From the NCBI RefSeq assembly GCF_003182275.1, contig NZ_QGTR01000005.1, positions 62,001-126,000 of the forward strand: a stretch of 64,000 bases of DNA, in the 5' to 3' direction. Of this stretch, positions 45,633 to 63,938 are shown in pieces. Within the stretch, counting starts at the first letter, position 1; each line of letters begins with the position of its first letter. The notes under the pieces were generated by a model, which did not search any database, was not told the DNA's origin, and was given only the letters and a program-made list of their open reading frames with translations. Both the position numbers and the translations under genes were made by a program. The stretch is from Hoeflea marina. Its GTDB lineage: Bacteria > Pseudomonadota > Alphaproteobacteria > Rhizobiales > Rhizobiaceae.

Positions 45633-45709
45633 GGCCCCATAGCTCAGTTGGATAGAGCGCAGGATTCCTAATCCTGAGGCCGATGGTTCAAATCCATCTG
45701 GGGTCACCA
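45633..45709 (+). tRNA. tRNA-Arg (anticodon CCT)
   Basis: A 77-nt cloverleaf: acceptor GGCCCCA pairs with TGGGGTC (one G-T), D arm AGCTCAGTTGGATAGAGC, anticodon stem CAGGA/TCCTG with loop TTCCTAA (anticodon CCT, reads AGG), and T arm with GGTTCAAATCC. The CCA end is encoded. tRNA genes are frequent integration sites for islands; accessory genes begin about 760 bp downstream. Confidence 0.96.
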
Positions 45710-46472: not shown

Positions 46473-47330
46473 TCAGCCGCGGCCAGCGGCCTCCCAGTGG
46501 TGCCGGATATGGGCATGGCCCTCGCGGTAGACCGCCTCCGGGCTCTCGGCGAAATCCCGCCACACCTTGGTCGCCGCAGCCAGGTCCGGCAGTCCCCTGC
46601 CGAAGGCCTCGATGGTCAGCCAGTCGTCATAGCCGCTGTCCCGGATTGCCTGGAACGTGGCGGCCCAGGGAATGTGCCCCCGGCCAGGCACGCCGCGGTC
46701 GTTCTCCGAAATGTGGATATGCACCACATTGTGTCGGTGGTCGGTGAAGGCCGCGACCGGATCGGTTTCCTCGATATTGCAGTGGAAGGTGTCGTACATC
46801 GCCCTGATGTTCGGATGCCCGATGGCGTCGATATGGGCTGACAGCCCCGCCATGGTGTTGAGCAGGTAGCACTCGAAGCGGTTGAGCGCCTCGAGTCCGA
46901 TGGTCACGCCGCAGCCGGCGGCATGATCGCCGATGGCGCGCTGGGACTCGATGGATCGGGAAAACTCGTCCGCGGTCGGACCGGTGCCGGAAAACCCGCC
47001 CAGCGTCGAGTGCAGCGGACCGCTCAGGGTCCTGGCGCCGAGTTCCGCCGCGCAATCGATCACCCGGCGCATATGGGCCACGCCCGCCGCCCGCACCGAG
47101 GCGTCCGGGCTGATCAGGTTCACGGCCGGATCGCCCATCGCCGAGACCGCCGTGCGCTCGAGCCCGATATCATCGAGCAGGACGCCCAGCCTGGCATAGT
47201 CCGCAGGCGCGCCCTCGAAGATCGGGATCTCGACCCCGTCGAAGCCCGTCGCCTTGATGTCGCTGAGCAGCGCCGCGTCGTCTCCGGTGACCCTGGTGGT
47301 CCACAGGAACATGCACATGCCGACCTTCAT
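46473..47330 (-). CDS. sugar phosphate isomerase/epimerase family protein (TIM barrel) 1
   Basis: A 285-residue xylose-isomerase-like TIM barrel. The metal ligands of the ketose 3-epimerase type are present: Glu in GLEALNRFE, Asp in YDTFHCN, His in HIHISENDRG, Glu in TIEAFG. Such enzymes epimerise or isomerise free ketoses, or act on inositol-like rings. It is the last gene of the leftward arm of the sugar cluster, after the Gfo/Idh/MocA gene (71-nt gap). Substrate unknown. Confidence 0.87.
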   Translation of the reverse strand: MKVGMCMFLWTTRVTGDDAALLSDIKATGFDGVEIPIFEGAPADYARLGVLLDDIGLERTAVSAMGDPAVNLISPDASVRAAGVAHMRRVIDCAAELGARTLSGPLHSTLGGFSGTGPTADEFSRSIESQRAIGDHAAGCGVTIGLEALNRFECYLLNTMAGLSAHIDAIGHPNIRAMYDTFHCNIEETDPVAAFTDHRHNVVHIHISENDRGVPGRGHIPWAATFQAIRDSGYDDWLTIEAFGRGLPDLAAATKVWRDFAESPEAVYREGHAHIRHHWEAAGRG

Positions 47331-47401
47331 AGGATCCCCCCGTCCGGCCGCGCCGGCGCTTCGCGTTCAGGTCCGCCGCCGGCCCGTCGGGCCGGCGGGC
47401 T

Positions 47402-48595
47402 TCAGATGTCGAGCGGCGTCCAGGCCGCGTTGTTGGCCGAGGAGTCGACACAGGCGGCGACAAACGCCACCCCCTCGAGCCCGTCGTCGATTCCCGGATA
47501 ACTCACCGCGGGATCGAGCGGCGCCGCGGACAGACGCGCCGCGCGGATGGCGCGCGCCGCCTCGGCATAGATCGTGGCAAAACCCTCGAGATAACCCTCC
47601 GGATGGCCGCCGGGGACCCTCGACACACGGCCGGCGGCCTCGCCGGCGCCGGCACCGTTGCGGGTGATGAGCCGCTTGGGCTCGCCCAGCGGCGTGAACC
47701 AGAGATAGTTCGGGTCCTCCTGGGCCCATTCCAGTCCGCCTCTGCTGCCGTATACCCTGAGCTTCAGCGCGTTCTCGTTGCCCGGCGCCACCTGGCTCGC
47801 CCACAGTATTCCCTTGGCGGCCGGCGCATCTCCCTCCGGCCGGAACCGCAGCATCACATGCGCATTGTCGTCAACCCGGCGGCCGGCCACGAAGGCGGAA
47901 AGATCAGCCGACAGGCTGTCAAGCGTCAGTCCGCTGACGAAACGGGCGAGATTGAAGGCGTGGGTGCCGATGTCGCCGGTGGCGCCACCCGCCCCGGACT
48001 TGGCCGGATCGGTACGCCAGGCGGCCTGCTTCTGCCCGCTGGCCTCCAGGTCCTCGCTGAGCCAGTCCTGCGCATACTCCGCCTGCACCAGCCGAAGGTC
48101 GCCGAGCAGGCCTGAGCGCACCATCTCTCGCGCCTGCCGGATCATCGGGTAGCCGGTGTAGTTGTGGGTCAGCACGAACAGCCTGCCGCTGGACCGCGCC
48201 AGCGCGGCGAGATCCCTGGCGTCCTTGAGCGTCGATGTCAGCGGTTTGTCGCAGATGACATGGATGCCGGCCTCGAGAAACGCCTTCGCCGCCGGGTAGT
48301 GCATGTGATTGGGCGTGACGATCGAGACCGCCTCGATACCGTCGGGCCGCGCCGCCTCGGCGCGCGCCATCTCCTCGAAGCTTGCATAGCTGCGCTCCGG
48401 ATCGAGCCCCAGTTCGGCCGCCGACGCTCTTGCGCGGGACGGGTCCGACGACAATGCGCCGGCCACCAGCAAGAACTCGCCGTCCAGCCGCGCGGCGATG
48501 CGGTGCACCCCGCCGATAAAGGCGCCCTGGCCGCCGCCGACCATGCCGTAGCGGATGGGACCCGCGGCGATTTCGGATTTTCCCTCGATTGCCAT
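47402..48595 (-). CDS. Gfo/Idh/MocA family oxidoreductase
   Basis: A 397-residue NAD(P)-dependent sugar dehydrogenase-type enzyme: nucleotide motif YGMVGGGQGAFIG (non-standard, GGGxGA), VTPNHMHYPAAKAFLEAG, then the EKP-type motif as CDKPLT, and the catalytic-domain GGATGDIGTHAFN. It would oxidise a hydroxyl of a sugar or inositol. ATG 48595 has GGGAG 7 nt upstream. It lies between two TIM-barrel epimerase genes in the leftward transcription unit; the combination of oxidation and epimerisation is typical of cyclitol and ketose catabolism. Confidence 0.9.
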   Translation of the reverse strand: MAIEGKSEIAAGPIRYGMVGGGQGAFIGGVHRIAARLDGEFLLVAGALSSDPSRARASAAELGLDPERSYASFEEMARAEAARPDGIEAVSIVTPNHMHYPAAKAFLEAGIHVICDKPLTSTLKDARDLAALARSSGRLFVLTHNYTGYPMIRQAREMVRSGLLGDLRLVQAEYAQDWLSEDLEASGQKQAAWRTDPAKSGAGGATGDIGTHAFNLARFVSGLTLDSLSADLSAFVAGRRVDDNAHVMLRFRPEGDAPAAKGILWASQVAPGNENALKLRVYGSRGGLEWAQEDPNYLWFTPLGEPKRLITRNGAGAGEAAGRVSRVPGGHPEGYLEGFATIYAEAARAIRAARLSAAPLDPAVSYPGIDDGLEGVAFVAACVDSSANNAAWTPLDI

Positions 48596-48761
48596 TTCTC
48601 TCTCCCTAAGCCATGCCGGGCGAAGCCGGTTCCGCCCCGCCCGAATCCTGTGCAAGACGATTGGTCACACGGCCGCCGCGACCCGGTGCGACAAAGGCGC
48701 ACTGCATTGCCGCGCCGTCAACCGGACACGCGACCGGTGCAGCCCAAGCCGCCACCATATC

Positions 48762-49817
48762 TCAGAGCCCCAGCAGCTTGTTGATCGCGGCCTGGTCGGT
48801 TTCTCCGCCGGCGAAATCGTCGAACGCCTTCTCCGTGACCCTGATGATGTGGTCGGCGATGAAGGGCGCGCCCTCCGCCGCCCCGTCCTCGGGATGCTTG
48901 AGGCAGCATTCCCATTCCAGCACCGCCCAGCGGTCGTAATTGTACTGCGCCAGTTTGGAGAAGATGCCGACGAAATCAACCTGACCGTCACCCAGCGAGC
49001 GGAAGCGCCCGGCCCGCTCGGTCCAGCCCTGGTAGCCCGAATAGACGCCCTGCCGGCCGGTCGGGTTGAACTCGGCATCCTTGGCATGGAAGGCGGAAAT
49101 CCGCTCGTGATAGATGTCGATGAAGGCAAGATAGTCCAGCTGCTGCAGCAGGAAATGCGACGGATCATAGTTGATCCGGCAGCGGTTGTGATTGCCGGTC
49201 TGCTCGAGGAACATCTCGTAGGTGGCGCCGTCGAAGACGTCCTCGCCCGGATGGATTTCGTAGCCGATGTCGACGCCGACGTCCTCATAGGCATCGAGAA
49301 TCGGCTTCCAGCGCCGGCCAAGCTCCTTGAAGGCGGTCTCGATCAGCCCCTGCGGCCGCTGCGGCCAGGGATAGAGATAGGGAAAGGCCAATGCGCCGGT
49401 GAACGACACCGTTCCGGTCAGCCCGAGATTGCGCGAGGCCCTGGCGGCCAGCATCAGCTGGTCGACCGCCCATTCCTGCCGCGCGGCAGGATTGTTGTGC
49501 ACCTGAGGCGGCGCGAATCCGTCGAACTGCGAATCATAGGCCGGATGCACGGCCACCAGCTGCCCCTGCAGATGGGTCGACAGCTCCGTGATCTGGATGC
49601 CGGCATCCGCGCAGATGCCCTTGACCTCGTCGCAATAGGTCTGCGATTCGGCCGCCTTCTTCAGATCGAACAACCGGCCGTCCCAGCTCGGGATCTGCAC
49701 GCCCTTGTAGCCGTGACCGGCAGCCCAGGCCACGATGGACGGCAGCGAATTGAACGGCGCCTCGTCGCCTGCGAACTGCGCCAGAAAGATCCCGGGGCCC
49801 TTCATTGTGGTTGCCAT
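48762..49817 (-). CDS. sugar phosphate isomerase/epimerase family protein (TIM barrel) 2
   Basis: A 351-residue xylose-isomerase-like TIM barrel, longer than its two neighbours and not a close copy. Ligand candidates: Glu in GYEIHPGED, Asp in NYDPSHFLLQQ, His in AFHAKDAEF, Glu in LEWECCL. It begins MATTMKGPGIF with GGAGGAG about 9 nt upstream; the longer frame to 50027 crosses the control region. First gene of the leftward arm, with a TGGT-N3-ACCA palindrome 100 nt upstream. Confidence 0.88.
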   Translation of the reverse strand: MATTMKGPGIFLAQFAGDEAPFNSLPSIVAWAAGHGYKGVQIPSWDGRLFDLKKAAESQTYCDEVKGICADAGIQITELSTHLQGQLVAVHPAYDSQFDGFAPPQVHNNPAARQEWAVDQLMLAARASRNLGLTGTVSFTGALAFPYLYPWPQRPQGLIETAFKELGRRWKPILDAYEDVGVDIGYEIHPGEDVFDGATYEMFLEQTGNHNRCRINYDPSHFLLQQLDYLAFIDIYHERISAFHAKDAEFNPTGRQGVYSGYQGWTERAGRFRSLGDGQVDFVGIFSKLAQYNYDRWAVLEWECCLKHPEDGAAEGAPFIADHIIRVTEKAFDDFAGGETDQAAINKLLGL

Positions 49818-50194
49818 AGTCTGTGCTCCTCCATCTGGCGGAGAGGTTCCGGCCATGCCGTCCCTCCTGGTTCTCGACAATCCCGCACAATGCGGGTCCC
49901 GTTGCAAGGCAGCTTCATTTGGTAAGACCAAACGGGAAATTTGCATCTGCCCGGGTAGCATATCAGCCGCGACACATCCAGCCAATATTCTCTCGATCTT
50001 CGCGGGATAATGCTCTTTTTCAGGCAATATCAGGGAGATTGCCGGGACCGCTTGCGTCGGAAAATTCTTTGCGCTAACTGTTGTGCAAAGGCATGTGGTC
50101 CAACCAGATCACGCATTTTCAAGCAGTGCCGCATGGGTGGGGACCGTAACCCGCCTGCCCGCCAGGCCCTGAACCGGCATCAAGGGAGGACAGA
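49818..50194. other. 377-nt divergent control region of the sugar cluster
   Basis: No gene is visible. It contains the GntR-like site at 49918-49932, a hairpin CCCGCA-CAA-TGCGGG (49882-49896), and a long-range repeat TCCCGTT (49897-49903) / AACGGGA (49931-49937) that brackets the operator. The right part is AT-richer than its surroundings (about 49995-50110), where promoters are likely. Confidence 0.55.
49918..49932. promoter_or_regulatory. GntR/FadR-type operator site 1
   Basis: TTTGGT-AAG-ACCAAA is a perfect 15-bp palindrome holding the TGGT-N3-ACCA core expected for FadR-subfamily GntR repressors. It lies between the leftward epimerase gene and the rightward operon that encodes a GntR regulator (52316-53026). 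Two more cores are at 59861 and 60028. Confidence 0.7.
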
Positions 50195-51085
50195 ATGCAT
50201 CTTTCAACTCACAACTGGATGCGGGCCGAACCGCTCGACGTGACCCTGCGGCGCATCAAGAAATACGGCTATGAGAGCATCGAGATCTCAGGCGAGCCGA
50301 CCCAGTACGATGTCAAGGAGACGCGCTCACTTCTCAAGGAGCACGGGATCCGCTGCTGGGGCGCGGTGACGCTCACGCTTGGCGAGCGCAACCTCGCCGC
50401 CAAGGACGAGGGCCAGCGGGCGCGGTCCGTAGACTACGTCAAGAGCGTGCTCACCATGGTCAGCGAGCTCGAGGGCGAGATCATCACGTTGGTGCCTGCC
50501 ACCGTCGGCAAGGTGATCCCCGACGCCACAGAGGAAGAGGAATGGGGCTGGGTGGTCGAGGCGACCAAGGAGTGCTTCGCCCACGCCCAGAAGGTCGGCG
50601 TCAAGATCGCCATCGAACCGCTCAACCGTTTCGAGACCTATTTCTTCAACCGCTGTGCCCAGGCGCTCGCCCTGGCGGACGCGGTGAGCCCCGAATGCGG
50701 CGTCTGCCTCGACGCCTACCACCTCAACATGGAGGAATCCGACATCCATGACGCCATCCGCCTGGCGGGCAAAAGGCTGTTCGACTTCCATGTCGCCGAC
50801 AACAATCGCTTCGCCGCCGGCCTTGGGCACCTTGACTGGCCGAAGATCGTCTCAACCCTGCGCGAGGTCGGCTATGACGGCGCTCTGACCAACGAGTTTG
50901 TCGCTCCTGTCGACCGAACGCCGGCGGCGATCTATCCCGACATGGTGGAGCGCAACCCGGTCGACATCTCGCCTGAGCAGCTCAAGTTCATTCAGGACCA
51001 TGGCTCCAGCCTGCTGACCGAGGCCTTTTACGACGAGCAGATGCGGATCACCGCCGAGACCCTGCTTCCACTGATCAACAAATGA
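50195..51085 (+). CDS. sugar phosphate isomerase/epimerase family protein (TIM barrel) 3
   Basis: A 296-residue xylose-isomerase-like enzyme. Ligands in the ketose 3-epimerase pattern: Glu in AIEPLNRFE, Asp in CLDAYHLNM, His in FDFHVADNNR, Glu in LTNEFV. It resembles D-tagatose/D-psicose 3-epimerases but also inosose-type isomerases. GGGAGGACAG lies just before ATG. It is the first gene of the rightward operon with the MR/MLE enzyme, GntR regulator and hydroxyacid dehydrogenase. Confidence 0.89.
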   Translation: MHLSTHNWMRAEPLDVTLRRIKKYGYESIEISGEPTQYDVKETRSLLKEHGIRCWGAVTLTLGERNLAAKDEGQRARSVDYVKSVLTMVSELEGEIITLVPATVGKVIPDATEEEEWGWVVEATKECFAHAQKVGVKIAIEPLNRFETYFFNRCAQALALADAVSPECGVCLDAYHLNMEESDIHDAIRLAGKRLFDFHVADNNRFAAGLGHLDWPKIVSTLREVGYDGALTNEFVAPVDRTPAAIYPDMVERNPVDISPEQLKFIQDHGSSLLTEAFYDEQMRITAETLLPLINK

Positions 51086-51141
51086 CGGGCCTTGCGCGTC
51101 CCGCCGCAGCCGACCCGCGGCGGGGAACCGGAGAAGGATAG

Positions 51142-52323
51142 ATGCGGATCAAATCGGTCAACGCCTGGTGGGTCTCCATACCCATCGAATCGGGCCGCCA
51201 GCACCGCAGCGACTTCGGCAAGCTGACGACGTTCGACAGCGCCATCCTGCGCATCGAGACGGATGACGGGCTTGTCGGCTGGGGTGAGGGCAAGAACGCG
51301 GCCGGCAGCTCCGGCACCTACGGCGCGCTTGTCCATCTGCTCAACGAGGAGGTGGCCCCGCGGCTCATCGGCCGCCACGCCGGCGACATCACCGCCATCT
51401 GGGAAATGCTCTACAACGGCGTGCGCCACGAATCCGCCGCCAGCGCCGGCCACGCCATGCCGGAACTCTCCCGCCGAGGCCTGACCACGGCGGCGATTTC
51501 GGCCGTCGACATCGCGCTCTGGGACATCCTCGGCAAGCACCTCGGGCAGCCCGTCTGGCAACTGCTGGGCGGACGCAAGGCCGACCGGCTGCCCGCCTAT
51601 GCCTCGGGCGGCTGGGCCGATGCGGCCGGCATCGGCGCGCAGCTGCAATCCTACATCGACATCGGTGGCTTCAAGGCGGTCAAGATGCGCGTCGGCGCCA
51701 TGGACGGGCTGCCGCATGTGTCCGCCGACCGGGTCAGGGCCGCGCGCCGCGCCCTCGGCCCGGGCATCGACATCATGGTCGACGCCCACGGTACCTACAC
51801 GGTTGCCGAAGCCAAGCGGTTCGCCCACATGGTTGCCGACTGCGACCTGGCCTGGTTCGAGGAGCCGGTGATCGCCGATGACAAGCCCGGCATGGCGGAG
51901 GTCCGCGCCGCCACCACGATCCCGATCGCCACAGGTGAATCCGAATCCACCCGGTTCGCCTTTCGCGACCTGGTCCAGGCCCGCGCCGCCGACATCCTGC
52001 AGCCAGACCCGGCCTTCTGCGGCGGCATTACGGAGGCCATGCGGATTGCCGCGCTGGCCTCGGCGTTCAACCTGCGCTTCGCCCCGCATTTGTGGGCCGG
52101 CGCGCCATGCTTCTTTGCCGGCCTCCACATTTGCGCGGCCGCGCCGTCCAGCTTCCTGATAGAGTATTCCTGCGGCGCCAACCCGATGATCTTCGACCTC
52201 ATCGAGGGCGAGATCGCCGCCCGGGACGGCATGGTCGCCATCCCTGATGGACCGGGATTGGGTTATTCGATATCAGAGGCCTTTCTGATGGCGCACGTGA
52301 AGAAGAGTCCGGTCCATGTCTGA
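51142..52323 (+). CDS. mandelate racemase/muconate lactonizing enzyme family dehydratase
   Basis: A 393-residue enolase-superfamily enzyme of the mandelate racemase subgroup, most of which dehydrate sugar acids. Metal ligands: Asp214 (VDAHGTYT), Glu240 (WFEEPV), Glu266 (TGES). The His-Asp dyad is His316 (APHLW) with Asp288 (QPDP). At the other face the usual K-x-K is K181-M-R183. An aldonic or glycuronic acid is the likely substrate. The GntR gene starts 8 nt before its end. Confidence 0.9.
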   Translation: MRIKSVNAWWVSIPIESGRQHRSDFGKLTTFDSAILRIETDDGLVGWGEGKNAAGSSGTYGALVHLLNEEVAPRLIGRHAGDITAIWEMLYNGVRHESAASAGHAMPELSRRGLTTAAISAVDIALWDILGKHLGQPVWQLLGGRKADRLPAYASGGWADAAGIGAQLQSYIDIGGFKAVKMRVGAMDGLPHVSADRVRAARRALGPGIDIMVDAHGTYTVAEAKRFAHMVADCDLAWFEEPVIADDKPGMAEVRAATTIPIATGESESTRFAFRDLVQARAADILQPDPAFCGGITEAMRIAALASAFNLRFAPHLWAGAPCFFAGLHICAAAPSSFLIEYSCGANPMIFDLIEGEIAARDGMVAIPDGPGLGYSISEAFLMAHVKKSPVHV

Positions 52324-53026
52324 AAAGAACCTGCTGCCCGAACTGGCTGCCTATCTCTATTCGTTTTCGGATGCAGAGAACGGACGGACGCCATCGGAGC
52401 GGGAACTGGCCGAGCATTTCAGAGTCAGCCGTGGCCAGATCCGCGAGACACTCGCCATTCTCGAGGCCATGCGCATTGTCGAGCGGCGCGCGAAATCCGG
52501 CATCTACCTGACCACGCGGACTGCGAGTGTCGACGCCCTGGCGCTGTTTGCCAAGGCCGGCCTGCCGCTCGATCCGGTGCAGATCTACGAGACGGTGGAA
52601 CTGCGAAAGATCCACGAGATCAAGGCCGCCGAACTTGCCAGCGCCCGGGCGACCGAGGAGAATTTCGCGCGGCTGCGCGAAATTCTGGCTCGCTCCGAAC
52701 TCCGCCTCGCCGCCGGCGAGGGGCTTGCGGAGGAGGATTGCGACTTCCATCTTGAAATTGTCCGCGCCACCCAGAACCAGGTCTTCTACCGCATCTGCAG
52801 CGTCTATTACGCAATGGGCGAGCGGCGGCTGCCGATCTATTTCAGCGACCCTGCGCGCGGCGCCAAGTCCAATGCCGAGCACATCCAGATCTACGAGGCG
52901 CTGGTGCGCCGCGACGCAAATCTGGCCCAGGCGCTGATGAGCGCCCATCTGCAGGGGGTCGAAAGCTACTGGAAGGGCCTGATTTCCGGGCGGCAGGACG
53001 GCGTCGAGCCCGCCAGGCAGGACTGA
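52316..53026 (+). CDS. GntR-family (FadR subfamily) transcriptional regulator
   Basis: A 236-residue regulator. The winged HTH is at residues 5-70 (RTPSERELAEHFRVSRGQIRETL, cited in part: SERELAEHFRVSRGQIRE), followed by an all-helical FCD-type effector domain (about 85-215), with His residues in FHLEIV and EHIQIYEAL that could hold a metal. It probably represses the cluster until a sugar-acid intermediate binds, acting at the TGGT-N3-ACCA sites. It overlaps the dehydratase gene by 8 nt. Confidence 0.9.
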   Translation: MSEKNLLPELAAYLYSFSDAENGRTPSERELAEHFRVSRGQIRETLAILEAMRIVERRAKSGIYLTTRTASVDALALFAKAGLPLDPVQIYETVELRKIHEIKAAELASARATEENFARLREILARSELRLAAGEGLAEEDCDFHLEIVRATQNQVFYRICSVYYAMGERRLPIYFSDPARGAKSNAEHIQIYEALVRRDANLAQALMSAHLQGVESYWKGLISGRQDGVEPARQD

Positions 53027-53028
53027 GC

Positions 53029-54015
53029 ATGCCGCAGATCTTCTCCACCCACAGCCTGCATCCGCAGGTCACCGCAGATCTGCAGGCCGCCGGCGAGTTC
53101 CGTGTGGCCAGCGCACCCACCGCCGAAGCCATCATGGCGGAAGGGCTGCAGGCCGACATCGTGGTGGTGCGGGCGCCGATCCCGCAGGCCTACTTCGCAG
53201 CGGCCGGGAAGCTGCGCGCTGCCGTGCGCCACGGAGCCGGTCTTGACATGATTCCGCTCGACGCGGCCACCGGGGCCGGCGTTCTGGTGGCCAATGTGCC
53301 TGGCGCCAACTCCGTGACCGTCGCCGAGCACTGCATCTGGTCCGCGCTCGCTCTGTTGCGCCGCTATCCCGAAGTCAGCGCGGACCTGAGATCGTCCGGC
53401 TGGGCGGTGGCGCGGGCCCACTCCGACCTTGGCCGGGAACTCAGCGGACGAACCATCGGTATTGTCGGCATGGGCAATGTCGGCACCGCCCTGTTCCGGA
53501 TCGCCCATGGAGGATTCGGCATGAAGGTGCTTGCCGTCACCAGCAGGCCGAAGGCGCTGCCCGACGGCGCCGAGGCTTCGGACCTGCGCCATGCTCTGAC
53601 GCACAGCGACGTTGTCGTGCTGGCCTGCCCCCTCAATGACAGCACGCGCGGCCTGATCGGTGCGGGCGAACTGGCGCTGATGCGTCCTGGAGCGGTGCTG
53701 GTCAATGTTTCGCGCGGCCCGGTGGTCGATGAGCACGCGCTGCTTGACGCGCTTCAGGCGGATGCGATCGGCGGGGCTGTGCTGGATGTGTTCGACCGGC
53801 AGCCCTTGCCAGGTGAGCACCCGTTCCTGTCGCTGCGCAATGTCATTCTGACGCCGCACATGGCCGGCATCACCGAAGAAAGCATGCTGCGCATGGGCCA
53901 GGGCGTGGTGACGGAAACGCGACGCATTCTCGCAGGCGACAAACCGCTCAACTTTTGCAATCAGGCCGCATGGCCAAAATACCAGACCCGTTTCGGCGAG
54001 CGCATTTCAGGGTGA
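53029..54015 (+). CDS. D-2-hydroxyacid dehydrogenase family protein
   Basis: A 328-residue NAD(P)-dependent dehydrogenase. The nucleotide motif GIVGMGNVGTAL lies near 143-155, catalytic Arg229 in VSRGPVVDE and His277 in TPHMAGITEESM. The residue that is normally the catalytic Glu (DVFxxEP) is Gln258 here (DVFDRQPLP). I recall rhizobial relatives with VFxxQPLP, so it may be a subfamily trait. It would reduce or oxidise a 2-oxo/2-hydroxy acid made by the dehydratase. It begins 2 nt after the GntR stop and ends the rightward operon; it is convergent with the ABC transporter operon. Confidence 0.9.
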   Translation: MPQIFSTHSLHPQVTADLQAAGEFRVASAPTAEAIMAEGLQADIVVVRAPIPQAYFAAAGKLRAAVRHGAGLDMIPLDAATGAGVLVANVPGANSVTVAEHCIWSALALLRRYPEVSADLRSSGWAVARAHSDLGRELSGRTIGIVGMGNVGTALFRIAHGGFGMKVLAVTSRPKALPDGAEASDLRHALTHSDVVVLACPLNDSTRGLIGAGELALMRPGAVLVNVSRGPVVDEHALLDALQADAIGGAVLDVFDRQPLPGEHPFLSLRNVILTPHMAGITEESMLRMGQGVVTETRRILAGDKPLNFCNQAAWPKYQTRFGERISG

Positions 54016-54026
54016 GAGCGATCAGT

Positions 54027-54072
54027 CCGGACCTGCTCACGGAGGAGCGGAGGCTCCCGTGAACAGATCCGG
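54027..54072. terminator. bidirectional terminator between convergent operons
   Basis: Long imperfect stem: CCGGACCTGCTCACGGAG (54027-54044) pairs with CTCCCGTGAACAGATCCGG (54054-54072), with a bulge and two mismatches, loop about 9 nt. It lies between the 3' ends of the dehydrogenase and the ABC ATPase genes. No strong T-run on either side, but the position is right. Confidence 0.6.
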
Positions 54073-54106
54073 CCCTGGGAGGACCTGCCGTGGTCTGGCA
54101 CGCGAC

Positions 54107-55177
54107 TCAGCCCAGATCGAGATTGCGCCCGTTGCCAGGGTCGAAAGACAGAACTTTACCGGGCCGCCAGCCAAACCTGACCACCTCGTCGATCCGGACC
54201 TTCGTCTGCGCCGACACGGTGGCATGCAGGTGCGTGCCGTCGATGTCGAGCGTCAGGATCTTGATGACACCGTGATTCTCGATGTCGAAGACGCGGGCTG
54301 ACACCGGTCCGTTGTCGTCGAGCACCACGTCCTCGGGCCGAATGCCGAATCTCATGCGGGCGCCGTCCGCTCCGTGCGTCCTGGTGACCGGCAGGGTGAA
54401 CCCGCCCGCATCCAGGAGGGCCGCCCCGCCCCGCAGGACGCCATCGAGCAGATTCATCGGCGGGGTTCCGACCGAGCGCGCGACAAATGTGTTGATCGGC
54501 CGGGCATAGATCTCGGACGGGGTCCCGACCTGCACCAGCCGGCCCTGATTGAGCACGCCGATCTTGTCTCCCATCGACATCGCCTCGACCTGGTCGTGGG
54601 TGACGAACACGAAGGTCGCGCCCAGTTCGCTGTGCAGCTTCTTCAGCTCCACTCTGAGCACATCGCGCAGATTGGCGTCGAGCGCCGACAGTGGTTCGTC
54701 CATCAGGAACACGCGCGGCTTGCGCACGATCGCGCGGCCGATCGACACCCGCTGCATCTCGCCGCCCGACAGCCGTTCCACCTTGCGGTCGAGCAGCCGG
54801 GTGATCTGCAGCGTCTCGGCGACGCGGTCGACCCGGTCCTTGATCTCGGCGGTGGTAAGATTGTGGGTGCGGGACTTGAGCGGAAACTCGAGATTGCCGC
54901 GCACGGTGAGCCGCGGATAGAGCGAATACTGCTGCAGCACCAGCGCCACGTCGCGCTCGGCGGCATTCCAGCCGGTGGCGTCCTGCCCGTCGATGATGAC
55001 CTTGCCGGAGTTGGGTTTCTCCAGTCCGGCAATCACCCTCAATGTGGTGGTCTTGCCGGCACCGGTCTGACCCAGCAGCACGAAGAACTCGCCATCCTTG
55101 ATGTCGAGGTCCAGATCGCGCAACGCGATGTTGGGGCCGAACTTCTTGGTCACGCCCTGCAATGCGATGTCGGCCAT
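54107..55177 (-). CDS. ABC transporter ATP-binding protein (CUT1-like) B
   Basis: A 356-residue ATPase with a C-terminal regulatory domain (from about 240). Walker A GQTGAGKTT, signature LSGGEMQR, Walker B FLMDEPLSALD, and VTHDQVEAM. The Gln in the P-loop and the M in the signature are shared with the neighbouring ATPase. It is last in the transporter operon; its start overlaps the stop of ATPase A by one base. The pair likely forms a heterodimer, as in the two-ATPase GlpST glycerol transporter of Rhizobium. Confidence 0.93.
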   Translation of the reverse strand: MADIALQGVTKKFGPNIALRDLDLDIKDGEFFVLLGQTGAGKTTTLRVIAGLEKPNSGKVIIDGQDATGWNAAERDVALVLQQYSLYPRLTVRGNLEFPLKSRTHNLTTAEIKDRVDRVAETLQITRLLDRKVERLSGGEMQRVSIGRAIVRKPRVFLMDEPLSALDANLRDVLRVELKKLHSELGATFVFVTHDQVEAMSMGDKIGVLNQGRLVQVGTPSEIYARPINTFVARSVGTPPMNLLDGVLRGGAALLDAGGFTLPVTRTHGADGARMRFGIRPEDVVLDDNGPVSARVFDIENHGVIKILTLDIDGTHLHATVSAQTKVRIDEVVRFGWRPGKVLSFDPGNGRNLDLG

Positions 55178-56265
55178 CAGTTGGCTCCCCGCAGATTGAG
55201 GCCGCTGGCCGTATCGAAGAAATGCGCCTGCGCCGGGTCCAGTCGGGCCCAGACCCGCTGGCCCTCGCCGGAGACGAATCCGCTTGGCGTGCGCGCGCGC
55301 AGCACCGCGTCTCCGAGGCGGACATCGACGATGTCGTGACTGCCCAGGGGTTCGATATTGGTTGTTACCACTTCCACAAAACCTTCGGTCTGTTGATGCT
55401 CGAGCAGCACCGCTTCCGGGCGAGCGCCCAATGCCAGGTCGGCCTGGGTGCTGCGCACGCTGGCCAGCGCCTCGTCGGGAAAGCTGAAGCTGGCGTCAGC
55501 CCCGTTGAGTCGCACGCGTTGACCTTCGATTCGCACGCCGTTGACGTTCATCACCGGCGAGCCCACGAACTTGGCCACGAAGAGATTGGTCGGATGCAGG
55601 TAGACTTCGTCCGGGGCGCCGACCTGCTGCAGCACGCCGTCATGCAGGATGACGATGCGGTCCGCCAGGCTCATCGCCTCGATCTGGTCGTGGGTGACGT
55701 AGACGGAGGTAGACCCGCGGGCAATGTGCAGGCGTTTGATTTCGGCGCGCATCTGCTCGCGCAGCTTGGCGTCGAGCACGCCGAGCGGCTCGTCCATCAG
55801 GAGCGCCTGCGGGCGTCGGACAAGGGCACGCGCGATCGCGACGCGCTGCATGTCGCCACCCGAGAGCGCCGAAGGCTTGCGGTCGAGATGCTCGGCGATC
55901 TGCAGGATCTCGGCCACCTCCTTGACAGCCTTGTCGCGATCGGTCGCGTTCATGCGCACCGCGCGAAGCGGAAAGGCGATGTTCTCGCGCACGGTCATAT
56001 GCGGATAGAGCGAGAAGGACTGGAACACGAAGGCGATGTCGCGATCGGAGGCCTTGCGATGCTGCACCTCGGTGCCATTGATCAGGATCTTGCCCGAGGT
56101 CACGGACTCGAGCCCGGCGATGGCGCGGAGGGCGGTGGTCTTGCCGCCGCCAGACTGGCCCAGCATGACGACGAACTCCCCGTCGGCGATGGTCAGGTTC
56201 AGGTTTTTCAGAACCTGCAGATGACCGAAGAACTTCTGCACGTTCTGAATGTCGATCTGCGCCAT
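55177..56265 (-). CDS. ABC transporter ATP-binding protein (CUT1-like) A
   Basis: A 362-residue ATPase: Walker A GQSGGGKTT, signature LSGGDMQR, Walker B LLMDEPLGVLD, VTHDQIEAM, then a TOBE-like domain (about 235-360). It is distinct from the adjoining ATPase B (about 350 residues each, clearly diverged). The gene overlaps ATPase B and the 90-residue membrane gene by one base each, so the whole operon is tightly coupled. Confidence 0.93.
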   Translation of the reverse strand: MAQIDIQNVQKFFGHLQVLKNLNLTIADGEFVVMLGQSGGGKTTALRAIAGLESVTSGKILINGTEVQHRKASDRDIAFVFQSFSLYPHMTVRENIAFPLRAVRMNATDRDKAVKEVAEILQIAEHLDRKPSALSGGDMQRVAIARALVRRPQALLMDEPLGVLDAKLREQMRAEIKRLHIARGSTSVYVTHDQIEAMSLADRIVILHDGVLQQVGAPDEVYLHPTNLFVAKFVGSPVMNVNGVRIEGQRVRLNGADASFSFPDEALASVRSTQADLALGARPEAVLLEHQQTEGFVEVVTTNIEPLGSHDIVDVRLGDAVLRARTPSGFVSGEGQRVWARLDPAQAHFFDTASGLNLRGAN

Positions 56266-56537
56266 CAGTGGCTCCCTGCAGTCTTTGAGCCATTCTTGCT
56301 GGCATGGTCATTGATCTCCAGCACATCGAGCGAGTCCTCGATGTAGCTCTCCTCGACCTCCGGATCGGGTTCGATCTTGGAGGTGATCATGAAGGCAATG
56401 AGACCGAAGAGAGTCATGGTGACGCCGTAGTTATGCAGAAACACGCTCCAGGGCTGGCACAGCGAGATGATCCCGAAGATCATCAGCCCCTGTGCCGCCG
56501 GGACAAGAAGACGCTGGTTGATGCTGCGAAAACTCAT
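56265..56537 (-). CDS. small two-helix membrane protein in the ABC operon
   Basis: A 90-residue protein: SINQRLLVPAAQGLMIFGIISL is a first membrane helix, FLHNYGVTMTLFGLIAFMI a second, and the C-terminal 40 residues are acidic and cytoplasmic. It is embedded between a permease gene (ATGA overlap) and ATPase A (1-nt overlap). Rhizobial transporters with two ATPases can carry an extra small membrane protein (GlpU in the glycerol system); this one fills that role by position, though I cannot claim homology. It may be an accessory subunit. Confidence 0.75.
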   Translation of the reverse strand: MSFRSINQRLLVPAAQGLMIFGIISLCQPWSVFLHNYGVTMTLFGLIAFMITSKIEPDPEVEESYIEDSLDVLEINDHASKNGSKTAGSH

Positions 56538-57493
56538 TTGCGGATCGCTCCGAAGGACATGCCGCGCAGCAGGTGGTTGCGCAGGAGGAAGGTGAAGATC
56601 GCGACCGGCAGCAGGAACAGCAGAGTGCCCGATGCGATGACGGTCCAGTCGGGCAGGCCCGAGCCGACCTGGCTCGGGATGAAGGGCGGCGCGGTCTGGG
56701 CCCGGCGATTGGTCATGATCAGCGCGAATGCATATTCGTTCCAGGCCGTGATGAAGCAGAACACGGCGGTGGCGGCGATGCCGGTGGCGGCCTCGGGGAG
56801 AACGATCTTGAAGAAGGCCTGCATGCGCGTGTATCCGTCGACCAGCGCCGCCTCCTCGTATTCCTTCGGAATCTCGTCGATGAAACCCTTCATCAGCCAG
56901 ACGGAAAAGGACAGGTTGAACGCGGTGTAGAGGATGATGAGCCCCAGATGCGTGTCGTTGAGGCCGACTGCCCGGTACATCAGGAACATCGGGATCGCCA
57001 CCACAACAGGGGGCAGCATGCGTGTCGACAGGATGAAGAAGAGCAGATCCTGCTCGCCCTTCACCCTGAAGCGCGAGAAGCCGTAGGCCGTGAACGTGCC
57101 CATACCGACGGCGAGCACCGTCGAAGTGATGGCGACGATCAGTGAGTTCATGAAGCGGCTGGGATAGCCTGACAACTGGACTTCGCCACGCCCCGAGCGG
57201 ACCACCTTCTCGCCGCCATCGAACACGAGCCGTTCCCACCACGGGGCGGCTGCGTATTCTTCCTGGGACGGCGGCGCCCGGAGCTGCGAGCGCTTCGTGA
57301 ACAGCTTCACGAAAGGCGAGATTTCGGGCGTGAAGACGATTGTCGGCGGGATGGTGGTCGCCAGATTGCGCGGCTTGAACGCAGTCGAGGCGATCCAGTA
57401 GATCGGCGCCAGGAAGATCATGGTGATGATCAGGACGGAGACGATCGCCAGGCGATTTATGGTCCTTTCGCCATTGGTGCGGACGGCGGCCAT
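56534..57493 (-). CDS. ABC sugar transporter permease (MalG type)
   Basis: A 319-residue permease with six membrane helices; the first is near 15-37 and there is a long periplasmic loop after it (about 40-115). The EAA loop reads EYEEAALVDGYTRMQAFFKIVLP (cited in part: EEAALVDGYTRM). MalG-type, carbohydrate uptake family 1. It has an ATGA overlap with the small membrane gene and a 1-nt gap to the other permease. Confidence 0.92.
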   Translation of the reverse strand: MAAVRTNGERTINRLAIVSVLIITMIFLAPIYWIASTAFKPRNLATTIPPTIVFTPEISPFVKLFTKRSQLRAPPSQEEYAAAPWWERLVFDGGEKVVRSGRGEVQLSGYPSRFMNSLIVAITSTVLAVGMGTFTAYGFSRFRVKGEQDLLFFILSTRMLPPVVVAIPMFLMYRAVGLNDTHLGLIILYTAFNLSFSVWLMKGFIDEIPKEYEEAALVDGYTRMQAFFKIVLPEAATGIAATAVFCFITAWNEYAFALIMTNRRAQTAPPFIPSQVGSGLPDWTVIASGTLLFLLPVAIFTFLLRNHLLRGMSFGAIRK

Positions 57494-57494
57494 C

Positions 57495-58406
57495 TCAGCG
57501 TTCCTTCACTTTGTTCAGATATTTCACGTAGATGTTGGTGATTGCCAGGACCATGATCAGCACGATGTAGGCCAGAGCGCAGGACATGCCGGTCTGCCAT
57601 TCCTGGAACGCCATCTTGTAGAGCCGGATCGAGATCACTTCCGTGGTCGGCTGGCTGGTCAGGATATAGGCAAGGTCGAAGGTCTTGAAGGCCTCCATGG
57701 TCCGGAAGATGATCGCGATCATCAGGATCGGCGCGACCAGAGGCAGGGTGATGCGGAAGAAAGTGTAGAGCGATCCTGCCCGGTCGATCGCCGCCGCCTC
57801 GTAGAGGTGCTTGGGAACAGCGGACAGGCCGGCCAGCGACAGCAGCATCACGAAAGGCGACCACATCCATATATCGGTCAGCGCGACGGCGTAGAGCGCC
57901 ATATTCGGGTTGGACAGCCATTCGAAGGTGCCAAGCCCCAGCGCGTAGTTGATGATGCCGAAGGACGGATCGTAGAGCAGCTTCCAGAACAGGCCGACCA
58001 CCGCCATCGACAGCATCATCGGCAGCAGCAGCAGCGTCGTGAGCAGGCCCTTGAGCGGAATGTCCCGGTTGAGCAGCAGCGCCACCCCGAAGCCCACGAC
58101 CACCTGGCCGACAACCGATACGATCACGTATTTCGCCGTGATGGTGAAGTTGGTCCAGATGAACGGGTCGGCCAAGAGATCGCGGTAGTTCTGCAGTCCG
58201 ACGAAATTGGCTGGCGCGTTGGAAGACGCGCGGAAATCGGTGAACGAATAGCCCAGCGAATAGAGCAGCGGGAAAATATTGAAGACGATCAGGAACACGA
58301 TCGTCGGGATGATGAACAGGTTGCGGATCGACATATCGCTCATTCCGCGGGATGCGGCGCGCGATTTGGGATCCAGCGTCGTCAGGACTGCAGTGGCCAC
58401 AGCCAC
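57495..58406 (-). CDS. ABC sugar transporter permease (MalF type)
   Basis: A 303-residue permease with six helices (first near 30-50). The EAA loop is YEAAAIDRAGSLYTFFRITLP (cited in part: YEAAAIDRAGSLYTF). MalF/UgpA-type of the carbohydrate uptake family 1. It begins after an intercistronic hairpin that separates it from the binding-protein gene. It starts MAVATAVLTTLDPKSRA; a later Met at residue 22 or 25 (MSDMSIRN) is also possible. Confidence 0.92.
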   Translation of the reverse strand: MAVATAVLTTLDPKSRAASRGMSDMSIRNLFIIPTIVFLIVFNIFPLLYSLGYSFTDFRASSNAPANFVGLQNYRDLLADPFIWTNFTITAKYVIVSVVGQVVVGFGVALLLNRDIPLKGLLTTLLLLPMMLSMAVVGLFWKLLYDPSFGIINYALGLGTFEWLSNPNMALYAVALTDIWMWSPFVMLLSLAGLSAVPKHLYEAAAIDRAGSLYTFFRITLPLVAPILMIAIIFRTMEAFKTFDLAYILTSQPTTEVISIRLYKMAFQEWQTGMSCALAYIVLIMVLAITNIYVKYLNKVKER

Positions 58407-58433
58407 CTCCTCTTTGATATGCAGAGACGAAAA

Positions 58434-58459
58434 CGGAGGGGGCGGGCACGCCCCCTCCG
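58434..58459 (-). terminator. strong intercistronic hairpin after the binding-protein gene
   Basis: Perfect 11-bp stem CGGAGGGGGCG-GGCA-CGCCCCCTCCG, followed on the minus strand by TTTTCGTCTCTG. It lies 12 nt after the binding-protein stop and 27 nt before the permease start. It should end most transcripts, leaving the binding protein in excess over the membrane parts. Confidence 0.78.
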
Positions 58460-58471
58460 CAAGAACGGGAT

Positions 58472-59782: not shown

Positions 59783-59860
59783 GCTTATTCCTCCCATTCG
59801 TTTACGTCATCCTCGGATCAGGCTGACCTCCCCAGGCAGCTATGATCAAACGCACCCAAC

Positions 59861-59871
59861 TGGTAATACCA
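59861..59871. promoter_or_regulatory. GntR/FadR-type operator site 2
   Basis: TGGT-AAT-ACCA, flanked by AAC on both sides. It is 79 nt upstream of the ABC binding-protein start and shares the TGGTAA(K)ACCA core with site 1 (TGGTAAGACCA). Confidence 0.68.
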
Positions 59872-60027
59872 AACTGCGAAGCCCGTCAAGGGGCTTGGGC
59901 CAAAGAATCGCACGCCGCTGTAATCGTTTGCAGGCCAATTTCTCTCAATATATCTGGATTTTTGATTGCCACATGCCGTCGTAGTGGGTCGCAACCGGCA
60001 CGAAAGCCGATTCCAGACTTGTAAATC

Positions 60028-60038
60028 TGGTCGAACCA
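60028..60038. promoter_or_regulatory. GntR/FadR-type operator site 3
   Basis: TGGT-CGA-ACCA within the 13-bp perfect palindrome CTGGTCGAACCAG (60027-60039), 81 nt upstream of the UPF0261 gene start. Same core as sites 1 and 2. Confidence 0.65.
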
Positions 60039-60119
60039 GTTAGGCTTTTGAAGACCATCGGTGAGCAGGATGACCGGCCGATCACGATGGATCCGTATCA
60101 TGGCTGAAAGACTTCTGGA

Positions 60120-61316
60120 ATGCATCACATCTTTGTCGTCGGAACCGCGGACACCAAGGGCGAGGAACTGGCATTTCTCGCCGGCCTGCTGCGCGATAGC
60201 GGCATGACCGTAACGCTCGCCGATGTGGGCACGCGCACCGCGACTGTTGCCACGGAGATTTCCGCACGCCAGATCGCCGCCTGCCATCCCCTCGGCGCCG
60301 ACAGGATCCTGGCCATCAAGGACCGCGGCCGCGCCGTCGCGCTGATGGGTGAGGCCTTTGCTCGCTTCATCGCCAAACGCAGCGACATAGACGGAATCAT
60401 TGGCATCGGCGGCGGCGGCGGCACGTCGATCGTCTGCGAAGGGTTGCGCACCATTCCCTATGGCGTGCCGAAGATCATGGTCTCGACGCTGGCTTCCGGC
60501 GACACCGCGCCCTATGTCGGCATTTCCGACATCGTGATGATGCCCTCTGTCACCGACATGGCTGGGCTCAACCGACTGAGCCGCGTCATTCTGCACAATG
60601 CCGCCCAGGCGTTGGCCGGCATGGTCGCCCACCCTGCGCCCGCGCAGACGGGCAAGCCTGCCGTGGGCCTGACCATGTTCGGCGTCACCACGCCCTGCGT
60701 GATGGCGATAGCCGAGGGATTGCGCGGCGACCACGACTGCATGGTCTTCCATGCCACCGGCACCGGTGGCCGGACGATGGAGAAGCTCATTGATTCAGGC
60801 TTGCTTACCGGCGTCATCGACATCACCACCACGGAAGTCTGCGACCTGTTGCTGGGCGGTGTGCTCCCGGCCAGCGACGACCGCTTCGGCGCCATCGCGC
60901 GCACGGGGATGCCCTGGGTTGGATCGGTCGGTGCGCTCGACATGGTCAATTTCTGGGCGCCCGACACCGTGCCCAAGCAGTTCGGGGACCGCAAGTTCTA
61001 TCACCACAATCCGAATGTGACGTTGATGCGCACCTTGCCGGCGGAGTGCGATCGCATAGGACGCTGGATCGGCGAACGTCTCAATGCCGGCGACGGGCCG
61101 ATCCGGCTGCTGCTGCCGGAGAAAGGCATATCCGCGCTCGACATCGAAGGCGGCGTGTTCCACGATCCCGAAGCCGACGCGGCGCTGTTTGCAGCGCTGG
61201 AACAGACGCTCCGTCAGTCCAGCCACCGCCGCATCCTGCGGCTCGACGCCCACATCAACGATCCCGCCTTTGCCCGGGCCGCCATCGCGGCCTTCCACGA
61301 CATCCAGCCGGAGTAG
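60120..61316 (+). CDS. Tm-1-like ATP-binding domain protein (UPF0261)
   Basis: A 398-residue protein with the UPF0261/Tm-1-like fold: [12 protein letters not shown] at the start, a glycine-rich loop [12 protein letters not shown] near 98-109, STLASGD, and [12 protein letters not shown]. This is the N-terminal half of the plant Tm-1 resistance protein; in bacteria it is a separate gene. The reaction is unestablished; the glycine loop fits a nucleotide or phosphate. It begins the rightward operon with the PEP-hydrolase-like gene (7-nt gap) and a cupin gene. Confidence 0.9.
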
Positions 61317-61323
61317 CCGCTTC

Positions 61324-62163
61324 ATGCCCGAAACCCGTTCATCGATCCTGACCCGCTTCCACGCCATGATCGCGGAGGGCATCCCGATCATCGGCGGCGG
61401 CGCCGGCACCGGCCTTTCGGCGAAGTCGGAGGAGGCCGGCGGCATCGACCTGCTCGTCATCTACAATTCCGGGCGCTACCGCATGGCCGGGCGCGGTTCG
61501 TCGTCCGGACTGCTCGCCTACGGCAATGCCAACGAGATCGTCAGGGAAATGGCGGTCGAGGTTCTTCCTGTGGTCAGGCACACCCCGGTGCTTGCCGGCG
61601 TCAACGGCACCGATCCCTTCATCCTGATGCCGCAGTTCCTCGCCGAGCTGAAGGCGATGGGCTTCGCCGGCGTTCAGAACTTTCCCACCATCGGCCTGTT
61701 CGACGGCGTCATGCGCCAGAGCTTCGAGGAGACCGGCATGGGCTATGGTCTGGAGGTGGACATGATCGCCGCCGCCCATGCCATCGACATGCTGACCACG
61801 CCATATGTCTTCAATCCGGATGAATCCACCGCCATGGCCAAGGCAGGGGCGGATCTCATCGTCGCCCATATGGGGGTCACCACCGGCGGCGCCATCGGGG
61901 CGACTTCGGCCAAGTCACTCGATCAGTGTGTGGCGGAGATCGAGGCCATCGGCGAGGCCGCGCGCGCGGTGCGCCATGATATCATCGTCATCTGCCATGG
62001 CGGCCCGATCGCCATGCCGGAGGACGCCCGCTATGTCCTCGATCATTGCCACGGCTGCCACGGCTTCTACGGCGCAAGTTCGATGGAGCGGCTTCCCGTC
62101 GAGGTTGCCATCGCGCAGCAGGTGCGGGACTTCAAGGCGCTCAGGACCGGCCGCAAGAGCTGA
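61324..62163 (+). CDS. phosphoenolpyruvate hydrolase-like TIM-barrel protein
   Basis: A 279-residue protein matching the second half of Tm-1 (TIM-barrel signal transduction/PEP hydrolase family): [38 protein letters not shown], and [12 protein letters not shown], the three conserved loops. PEP-mutase/isocitrate-lyase-like fold suggests C-C or P-C bond chemistry on a 2-oxo acid. Together with UPF0261 it probably forms one enzyme. ATG 61324 gives MPETRSS; the frame is open further upstream. It precedes a cupin gene by 23 nt. Confidence 0.9.
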
Positions 62164-62186
62164 CACAACCCAGGAGGAATCGTTTC

Positions 62187-62603
62187 ATGACCAAGTCGTC
62201 ACCCTATTTCATCCGCCCCGAAACCGTCTCCGGCTTCGGCTTCGACTGGGGACAGCTGACGCTCACCGTCGGGCCAGAGGTCAACGGCGCAGAGCGCTTT
62301 TCGGGCGGCATCGTTGATGTCGCCCCCGGCGGCGGCCATGCGCGCCACAATCATCCCGGGGCAGAGGAGATCATCCTGGTGATGTCCGGCACCGGCGAGC
62401 AGATGGTCGAGGACGAAGATGGCAATCCGGTCACCCAGCAGGTGGGTGCGGGCTGCACCATCTATGTTCCGGAAAGCCGGTTTCACTCGACACTGAACAC
62501 CGGCGACACGCCGATGCAGCTTTTCGTCGTCTATTCGCCCGCCGGACCGGAACAGGCGCTGCGCGAGCTGCCGGATTTCCGCCTGCTCCCGCCCGGCGCC
62601 TGA
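62187..62603 (+). CDS. cupin domain protein
   Basis: A 138-residue cupin with GGGHARHNHPGAEEIILVMSGTG (His and Glu metal ligands; cited in part: HARHNHPGAEE) and FHSTLNTGDTPMQLFVVYSP. Small cupins of this kind act as sugar isomerases or bind intermediates. AGGAGG is 9 nt before ATG 62187. Third gene of the operon with UPF0261 and the PEP-hydrolase-like gene. Confidence 0.9.
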   Translation: MTKSSPYFIRPETVSGFGFDWGQLTLTVGPEVNGAERFSGGIVDVAPGGGHARHNHPGAEEIILVMSGTGEQMVEDEDGNPVTQQVGAGCTIYVPESRFHSTLNTGDTPMQLFVVYSPAGPEQALRELPDFRLLPPGA

Positions 62604-62608
62604 AGCGC

Positions 62609-62643
62609 CGGCACGGCGCGTACGTCAGGAGCGCGCCGTGCCG
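62609..62643. terminator. bidirectional terminator-like inverted repeat
   Basis: Perfect 12-bp arms CGGCACGGCGCG (62609-62620) and CGCGCCGTGCCG (62632-62643), loop 11 nt. It sits between the convergent cupin and M24 genes and covers the last 19 bases of the M24 gene. No T-run. Confidence 0.6.
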
Positions 62644-63821: not shown

Positions 63822-63938
63822 CTGAGCCCAATCCTCCATCAGGTGATGCGACGGTCATCAAACACCTCCATGCAGCGGAAGCCAAGCGCGGGACGAAAGA
63901 ATCTTGAGGATGCCCAATCAGGTCGCCTAAATGCAAAT

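Follow-up and report, generated by a model that had tools for sequence, protein, structure and literature searches.

A conserved regulon of Hoeflea marina and related bacteria with a candidate phosphorylative route for sugar acids

A stretch of 64,000 nucleotides from the 5.26 Mb genome of Hoeflea marina, hereafter called the window (G000, contig C5, positions 62001-126000), contains a cluster of 17 genes between window positions 46473 and 63839. The cluster is real, conserved and uncharacterised, and two of its members, the hydratase homologue HYD and the adjacent Gfo/Idh oxidoreductase, belong to a published pathway. We tentatively read it as a phosphorylative regulon that would import a sugar acid in oxidised or glycosylated form and degrade it completely, in which a UPF0261 protein would act as kinase and a PEP_hydrolase-like TIM barrel as lyase, a proposal that we prefer while placing it somewhat short of probable. 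It draws on family membership, conserved residues, shared operators and co-occurrence, from which every reaction is inferred. The original prediction for this DNA had seen in it a coherent regulon for acid-sugar catabolism that has a dedicated transporter and matches no described pathway, and in this respect it is supported by protein families, operators and synteny.

The genes named at the outset are present as open frames at their proposed places, and a Pfam scan of ten proteins confirmed their families, which comprise three AP_endonuc_2 TIM barrels, Gfo/Idh, MR/MLE, GntR-FCD, D-2-hydroxyacid dehydrogenase, UPF0261, PEP_hydrolase and cupin proteins, while the ATP-binding cassette (ABC) transporter was recognised by NCBIfam only (Table 1). 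They are organised in four transcription units that form two divergent pairs. In the first, HYD, Gfo/Idh and the TIM barrel TIM1 are transcribed leftward and the TIM barrel TIM3, MR/MLE, GntR and the dehydrogenase rightward; in the second, the ABC transporter is encoded leftward and UPF0261, PEP_hydrolase and the cupin rightward. One gene beyond the earlier list, encoding an M24 protein, probably also belongs to the cluster, as it is syntenic in four plasmid loci (L002-L005). Metal ligands are present in all six relatives of the M24 protein examined and in the seven relatives showing the cupin.

In the proposed route, the ABC importer would take up a glycoside or a keto-sugar acid. HYD and Gfo/Idh would convert released 2-hydroxy-3-keto-glucal via 3-keto-glucose to glucose, TIM1 and TIM3 would epimerise keto-sugar or keto-sugar acid intermediates, and the hydroxyacid dehydrogenase would interconvert keto and hydroxy acids. 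The MR/MLE protein may dehydrate an aldonate-type acid to a 2-keto-3-deoxy acid, after which UPF0261 would use ATP to phosphorylate an enol or a hydroxyl group, and the PEP-hydrolase-like TIM barrel would split the phosphorylated product into central metabolites. Kinase and lyase would thus both come from families foreign to the textbook routes.

Table 1. Position and assignment of the features of the cluster (window coordinates).
Feature	Position	Strand	Basis or remark
TIM1, ketose-3-epimerase-like TIM barrel, 285 aa	46473..47330	-	PF01261
Gfo/Idh oxidoreductase, 397 aa	47402..48595	-	PDB 3v5n, 594 bits
HYD, 2-hydroxy-3-keto-glucal hydratase homologue	48762..49817	-	PDB 8ro4, 565 bits over 348 aa
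Operator TGGTAAGACCA	49920..49930	.	102 nt upstream of HYD start codon
Operator TGGTCCAACCA	50096..50106	.	88 nt upstream of TIM3 start codon
TIM3, second epimerase-like TIM barrel, 296 aa, signature gene	50195..51085	+	84/84 loci
MR/MLE acid-sugar dehydratase, 393 aa	51142..52323	+	PF13378/PF02746
FadR/GntR (FCD) regulator	52316..53026	+	PF07729 and PF00392; 84/84 loci
D-2-hydroxyacid dehydrogenase	53029..54015	+	PF02826
ABC ATPase A	54107..55177	-	UgpC/MalK-type, below cut-offs
ABC ATPase B	55177..56265	-	UgpC/MalK-type, below cut-offs
Small protein of transporter operon, 90 aa	56265..56537	-	no NCBIfam match; detected in 58/84 loci
ABC permease	56534..57493	-	NCBIfam
ABC permease, start codon uncertain	57495..58406	-	NCBIfam
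MalE-class sugar-binding protein, 436 aa	58472..59782	-	weak PDB matches
Operator TGGTAATACCA	59861..59871	.	78 nt upstream of binding-protein start codon
Operator TGGTCGAACCA	60028..60038	.	81 nt upstream of UPF0261 start codon
UPF0261, 398 aa	60120..61316	+	sole PF06792 match in genome
PEP_hydrolase-family TIM barrel, 279 aa	61324..62163	+	PF09370, 421 bits; PDB 2p10, 434 bits
Metal-type cupin (HxH, E, H)	62187..62603	+	PF07883
M24 (Xaa-Pro peptidase/creatinase-like)	62625..63839	-	NCBIfam; synteny in L002-L005, opposite strand there

The central element of this proposal is the UPF0261 protein. Its AlphaFold model, obtained from 22 sequences (pLDDT 87), matches tomato Tm-1 (3wrx, E 2.3e-42, about 41% identity) and Saro_1862 of Novosphingobium aromaticivorans, a UPF0261 domain protein whose structure contains acetovanillone (9mpy, E 5.7e-36, TM-score 0.65, about 32% identity). 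Saro_1862 would in turn be MarK, a single-component kinase of this organism on which PMC13101465 gives an account, and the homology makes the H. marina protein a probable ATP-dependent small-molecule kinase. The cluster therefore probably holds a kinase, contrary to the original prediction, which had found none. With Saro_1862 and Tm-1 the protein shares the UPF0261 two-domain fold over the whole chain, but its setting differs, since here it is accompanied by a PEP_hydrolase partner and sugar genes instead of functions in aromatic catabolism or virus resistance. We predict the PEP_hydrolase TIM barrel to be the probable lyase partner of UPF0261; its own AlphaFold model (pLDDT 49) was not used. 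The domain now named PEP_hydrolase in Pfam is presumably the one termed TBST before. UPF0261 and a TIM-barrel partner are found in bacteria, archaea and fungi and are fused in land plants, and a co-evolution of UPF0261 with the TBST domain has been published (PMC5028733).

The units of the cluster are connected by a common operator, TGGTNNNACCA, as had been predicted. The window contains four such sites (at 49920, 50096, 59861 and 60028) compared to 0.35 expected from the mean of 100 shuffles, none of which reaches four, and each unit carries a single site located 78-102 nt upstream of its first start codon. Throughout the genome the pattern is found at 35 places and a reversed control pattern at 138, and a general repeat search of the window did not report the sites. 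Contig C5 has no sites beyond these four, so that the M24 gene has no TGGTNNNACCA site ahead of it. In related loci, an operator is found upstream of TIM3 in 82 of 82 cases and in the intergenic region between the binding-protein and UPF0261 genes in 39 of 39, after leaving out 2 and 45 of 84 loci, respectively, where the flanking gene that defines the region is missing; 209 of the 225 sites in 1.73 Mb fall within these two regions. The FCD-GntR protein is probably the reader of the TGGTNNNACCA operators. The gap between the binding-protein and UPF0261 genes (59783-60119) spans about 320-340 nt in the window and in L028 compared to 958-1161 nt in 38 other loci measured, and in L003-L005 and L108 a TetR gene is annotated between the two.

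Conservation was analysed in 84 loci, consisting of the best 80 of 183 relatives found by MR/MLE alignment and the plasmid loci L002-L005. As 82 of these were retrieved through MR/MLE, the presence of this gene is there by construction; two of L002-L005 were retrieved through UPF0261. Gene presence was assigned by tblastn, dropping matches below per-gene identity limits or with fewer than 40 aligned residues; incomplete or odd-sized frames were dropped as well, and our own gene calls are rough. All 84 loci have TIM3, GntR and the hydroxyacid dehydrogenase next to MR/MLE; TIM1 was detected in 72, HYD in 46, Gfo/Idh in 45, UPF0261 in 39 and PEP_hydrolase in 36, the last two being limited by the 10 kb flank. 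Where DNA extends at least 1.5 kb past the binding-protein gene, UPF0261 is found in 39 of 40 loci, L033 being the exception. A minimal module devoid of the UPF0261 half, considered for loci such as L034, L080, L088 and L096, was weakened because their genomes encode PEP_hydrolase (77-79% identity) beyond the 10 kb flank. Two architectures can be distinguished. In the first, HYD and Gfo/Idh are inserted between TIM1 and TIM3, mostly in Mesorhizobium and also in Aquibium, Fertoeibacter and the window; the second, mostly from Rhizobium, Sinorhizobium and Phyllobacterium, is devoid of this gene pair. The TIM3 region contains 92 operator sites in 46 loci with HYD vs 40 sites in 36 loci without it, and with about two sites per locus in one case and about one in the other, the HYD-Gfo unit carries its own operator.

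Metal and catalytic residues are retained in the enzymes of the set. TIM1 keeps E147, D180, H206 and E241 in all 72 relatives that have it, and TIM3, whose best segment is 82-94% identical across the 84 loci, keeps E141, D173, H199, R205 and E234 in all of them, so that both preserve the E, D, H, E ligands at positions which we take to bind the metal in ketose 3-epimerases. In MR/MLE, K181, R183, D214, H216, E240, E266, D289 and H316 are invariant in 84 of 84 loci and solved relatives align there; they presumably correspond to the KxR and DxH motifs, two glutamate ligands and the Asp-His pair. R229 and H277 of the hydroxyacid dehydrogenase are equally invariant, and residue 258, which by its spacing from Arg229 we assume to be the position of the usual catalytic glutamate, is a glutamine in 83 loci and a histidine in one. 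Formate dehydrogenase likewise has a glutamine in place of this glutamate. In Roseomonas (L142:2954-13004), a homologue of the dehydrogenase (42%) is located near an MR/MLE gene and a gene of the Xaa-Pro peptidase family, and this trio thus recurs outside the set. The neighbourhoods of two distant homologues fit acid-sugar and keto-sugar chemistry: the homologue of MR/MLE in Halomarina (L140, 42.7%) shares an island with genes for mannonate dehydratase, a four-carbon acid sugar kinase and UxaA, and the homologue of TIM3 in Metabacillus (L141, 37%) is encoded among Gfo/Idh proteins, zinc dehydrogenases and other TIM barrels.

TIM1 and TIM3 score 159 and 133.3 bits against the D-psicose 3-epimerase model and 124.5 and 142.8 bits against the model of the 5-keto-L-gluconate epimerase IolO, both with a cut-off of 300, and the myo-inositol families are missed by far (IolE at best 58 vs 290, IolG 48.6 vs 355). 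Psicose-epimerase, IolO and inositol identities were therefore rejected, and although the myo-inositol (iol) and IolO routes employ related TIM-barrel and Gfo/Idh families, the cluster proteins fall short of their equivalog cut-offs. MR/MLE remains below the cut-off of all 17 listed NCBIfam families, the best being galactonate dehydratase (212.8 vs 311).

HYD and Gfo/Idh provide the link to a known pathway. Of the three isomerases that had been predicted, two stand as epimerase-like TIM barrels, whereas the third is a homologue of 2-hydroxy-3-keto-glucal hydratase, of which we consider it an ortholog by its similarity to 8ro4. Gfo/Idh, a single-copy gene in the genome at E<=1e-20, is by its place beside HYD a probable 3-keto-glucose reductase. 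In Agrobacterium tumefaciens, AtHYD has been described as part of an operon of the order GlycDH-Gfo-OGE-HYD, with its function still called preliminary there (PMC10628242). As in that 3-keto-glucoside pathway, both homologues are adjacent and on the same strand in H. marina, but no GlycDH/OGE operon was recognised in the host, and HYD and Gfo/Idh are instead joined to a dehydratase, a hydroxyacid dehydrogenase, UPF0261, PEP_hydrolase, a GntR gene and shared operators. From their homology, the two would constitute half of the Agrobacterium pathway, recruited into the regulon. An assignment of the whole cluster to the A. tumefaciens pathway was rejected, as HYD and Gfo/Idh are the only parts of it recognised here. 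The cluster contains no GMC oxidoreductase. On a Croceicoccus plasmid (L117:1972-10372), a TIM barrel and a DUF6379 protein are found together with GH3, Gfo, HYD, gluconate-2-DH subunit 3 and a GMC oxidoreductase, a group resembling a complete pathway of glycoside elimination.

This module opens an alternative that we judge rather unlikely, in which one regulator controls two pathways: a 3-keto-glucoside module of HYD, Gfo/Idh and perhaps TIM3 as the missing lyase would process the glucose half of a glycoside such as an aldobionic acid, and an acid-sugar or aglycone module of MR/MLE and the dehydrogenase with UPF0261, PEP_hydrolase, cupin and M24 would process its other half. Operators precede both halves, and HYD is encoded elsewhere in all 32 genomes searched of the type lacking it in the cluster (a list that left out L049 and L107, whose left side is cut). 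The binding protein, whose predicted length of 436 residues was confirmed, has weak PDB matches of at best 69 bits (5ysb, 5iai, 1eu8 and SmoF), which include trehalose/maltose and sulfoquinovosyl-glycerol binders and would suit a glycoside. Conversely, TIM3 has epimerase-type residues and shows the same high identity to the window's protein with or without HYD alongside, an eliminase of known type was not identified, and HYD is also common without the cluster, in 104 of 240 genomes of the order.

A direct, non-phosphorylative route had been suggested originally and is in our view unlikely. Here, dehydratase and dehydrogenase would produce a 2,4-diketo or 2-keto-3-deoxy acid that UPF0261 and PEP_hydrolase cleave themselves, with ATP as mere activator or structural ligand. 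The C-C cleavage that the original prediction had placed in this pair may still apply to the TIM-barrel partner. The Pfam scan of ten proteins, enzymes and the regulator, revealed no standard sugar kinase, and UPF0261 and PEP_hydrolase also stay together elsewhere: in 12 other contexts, chosen from 45 listed plasmid matches and including some near-duplicates, PEP_hydrolase adjoins UPF0261 in every case (in L113 with a cupin in between), and a cupin is found within about 7 kb in seven (L007, L008, L011, L012, L111, L112 and L113). However, the homology of UPF0261 to a very likely kinase makes a phosphorylative route the better fit. Improbable is a third scenario, in which an aromatic or amide portion of the substrate is degraded by UPF0261, PEP_hydrolase, cupin and M24, unconnected with the sugar-acid enzymes: it is in line with the acetovanillone bound by Saro_1862, the M24 gene in the set, an amidase nearby in L031 and L040 and the retention of the sugar enzymes without UPF0261 and PEP_hydrolase in L033, but no aromatic ring-modifying enzyme was recognised in the set in Pfam and NCBIfam scans, and in L007, L012, L111 and L112 the pair is encoded near sugar ABC transporters and Gfo/Idh. 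Near four of the pairs, proteins of about 580-610 residues are found (L007:11318-13054, L008:12625-14454, L013:3701-5476 and L111:11634-13463), three of them annotated as PEP-hydrolase family members and the fourth as sigma-54-dependent regulator, which suggests that the TIM barrel may have a second use in sensing the same ligand.

Several observations weigh against the phosphorylative regulon that we favour. The locus L033 (14411-15686) retains binding protein, cupin and M24 with neither UPF0261 nor PEP_hydrolase between them at E<=1e-3, and L059 (19877-21015), where less DNA extends past the binding-protein gene, retains PEP_hydrolase while UPF0261 is missing from the stretch that separates PEP_hydrolase from the binding protein; the claim that this half is indispensable is therefore weakened. 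In favour of the regulon, PEP_hydrolase is encoded in all 45 genomes searched with a HYD-type cluster (leaving out L098), with a best identity of 76-83% in 44, but of only 70% in that of L033. In 36 of 82 loci, the cluster lacks HYD and Gfo/Idh, and at the outside HYD site, where both genes were called in 10 of 12 HYD-less-type genomes read, no operator was found in any of the 12, so that the two may merely have been co-opted. The host genome contains neither a PF13618 (Gluconate_2-dh3) gene nor, by gene positions, a GMC gene next to a TIM barrel. Co-occurrence again speaks for the regulon: among 249 genomes sampled from the order, nine of them positive for MR/MLE, PEP_hydrolase occurs in 9 of 9 positives vs 66 of 240 others (Fisher 1.4e-5) and HYD in 9 of 9 vs 104 of 240 (6.8e-4), both values ignoring kinship. 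HYD is common in any case (113 of 249), and PEP_hydrolase has 76-81% identity in seven positives, but only 67-68% in the other two, which perhaps hold paralogs. Finally, the identity of Saro_1862 with MarK is itself only inferred, from the same organism and the same substrate, and the UPF0261/PEP_hydrolase pair also occurs in quite different gene contexts.

Searches of the literature, supplements excluded, did not find the whole set as a described pathway, but two of its genes, HYD and Gfo/Idh, belong to a published one. The D-apionate pathways resemble the cluster in their logic, as they also serve oxidised plant-sugar acids; no apionate family name surfaced in the general Pfam and NCBIfam scans, which included no dedicated search with apionate enzyme sequences. 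The standard hexuronate and galactonate routes proceed via a dehydratase, the kinase KdgK and 2-keto-3-deoxy-6-phosphogluconate (KDPG) aldolase. The proposed route would follow the same logic of epimerising, reducing, dehydrating, phosphorylating and splitting; unlike there, these kinase and aldolase families are not among the cluster proteins scanned, and UPF0261 and PEP_hydrolase would hypothetically take their place.

On plasmids, the MR/MLE gene (at least 60% identity) is found in 122 of 72,556 records, all from Sinorhizobium, Rhizobium, Phyllobacterium or like genera; plasmids of S. meliloti, R. etli and R. leguminosarum are among them. The TIM3 subfamily is sharply bounded there, with 122 of 124 records at 80-90% identity and two below 60%. 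In R. leguminosarum 3841, the set corresponds to pRL120583-598 by gene counting from pRL120580 (sigma factor) and pRL120603 (succinate-semialdehyde dehydrogenase). The same counting rejects pRL120609-10, induced in the alfalfa rhizosphere according to PMC3333776, as the transporter of the cluster. The UPF0261 gene of S. meliloti appears to be SMa1334, matched by its length of 398 residues and by its neighbours, three genes after; according to PMC3462710, alfalfa symbiosis was normal after its disruption and it showed no expression in nodules. A group of Ldh_2, iron-alcohol dehydrogenase and alpha/beta hydrolase genes, joined in L005 and L108 by a semialdehyde dehydrogenase, adjoins the set in L005:17233-21854, L108:30002-34627 and L071:3569-6879 and may belong to it. 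In the window, a tRNA-Arg (CCT) gene at 45633-45709, about 760 nt off the left end of the cluster, marks a possible past integration site. A recent import of the lower-GC permease and binding-protein stretch was dropped, with GC content at third codon positions there amounting to 0.79-0.87.

In a wider perspective, UPF0261 and PEP_hydrolase might work as a pair of kinase and lyase in place of the classical sugar-acid kinase and aldolase, with plant Tm-1, in which relatives of both domains are fused, descending from this pair and the regulon representing its bacterial sugar setting, a conjecture that we regard as doubtful. In the portion of the literature covered, no sugar reaction has been assigned to UPF0261 and its TIM-barrel partner. 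Through the regulon, which is frequent on rhizobial plasmids, the pair becomes linked with a defined set of enzymes, a transporter and a regulator, and this brings its substrate and reaction within reach of ordinary genetics and biochemistry.

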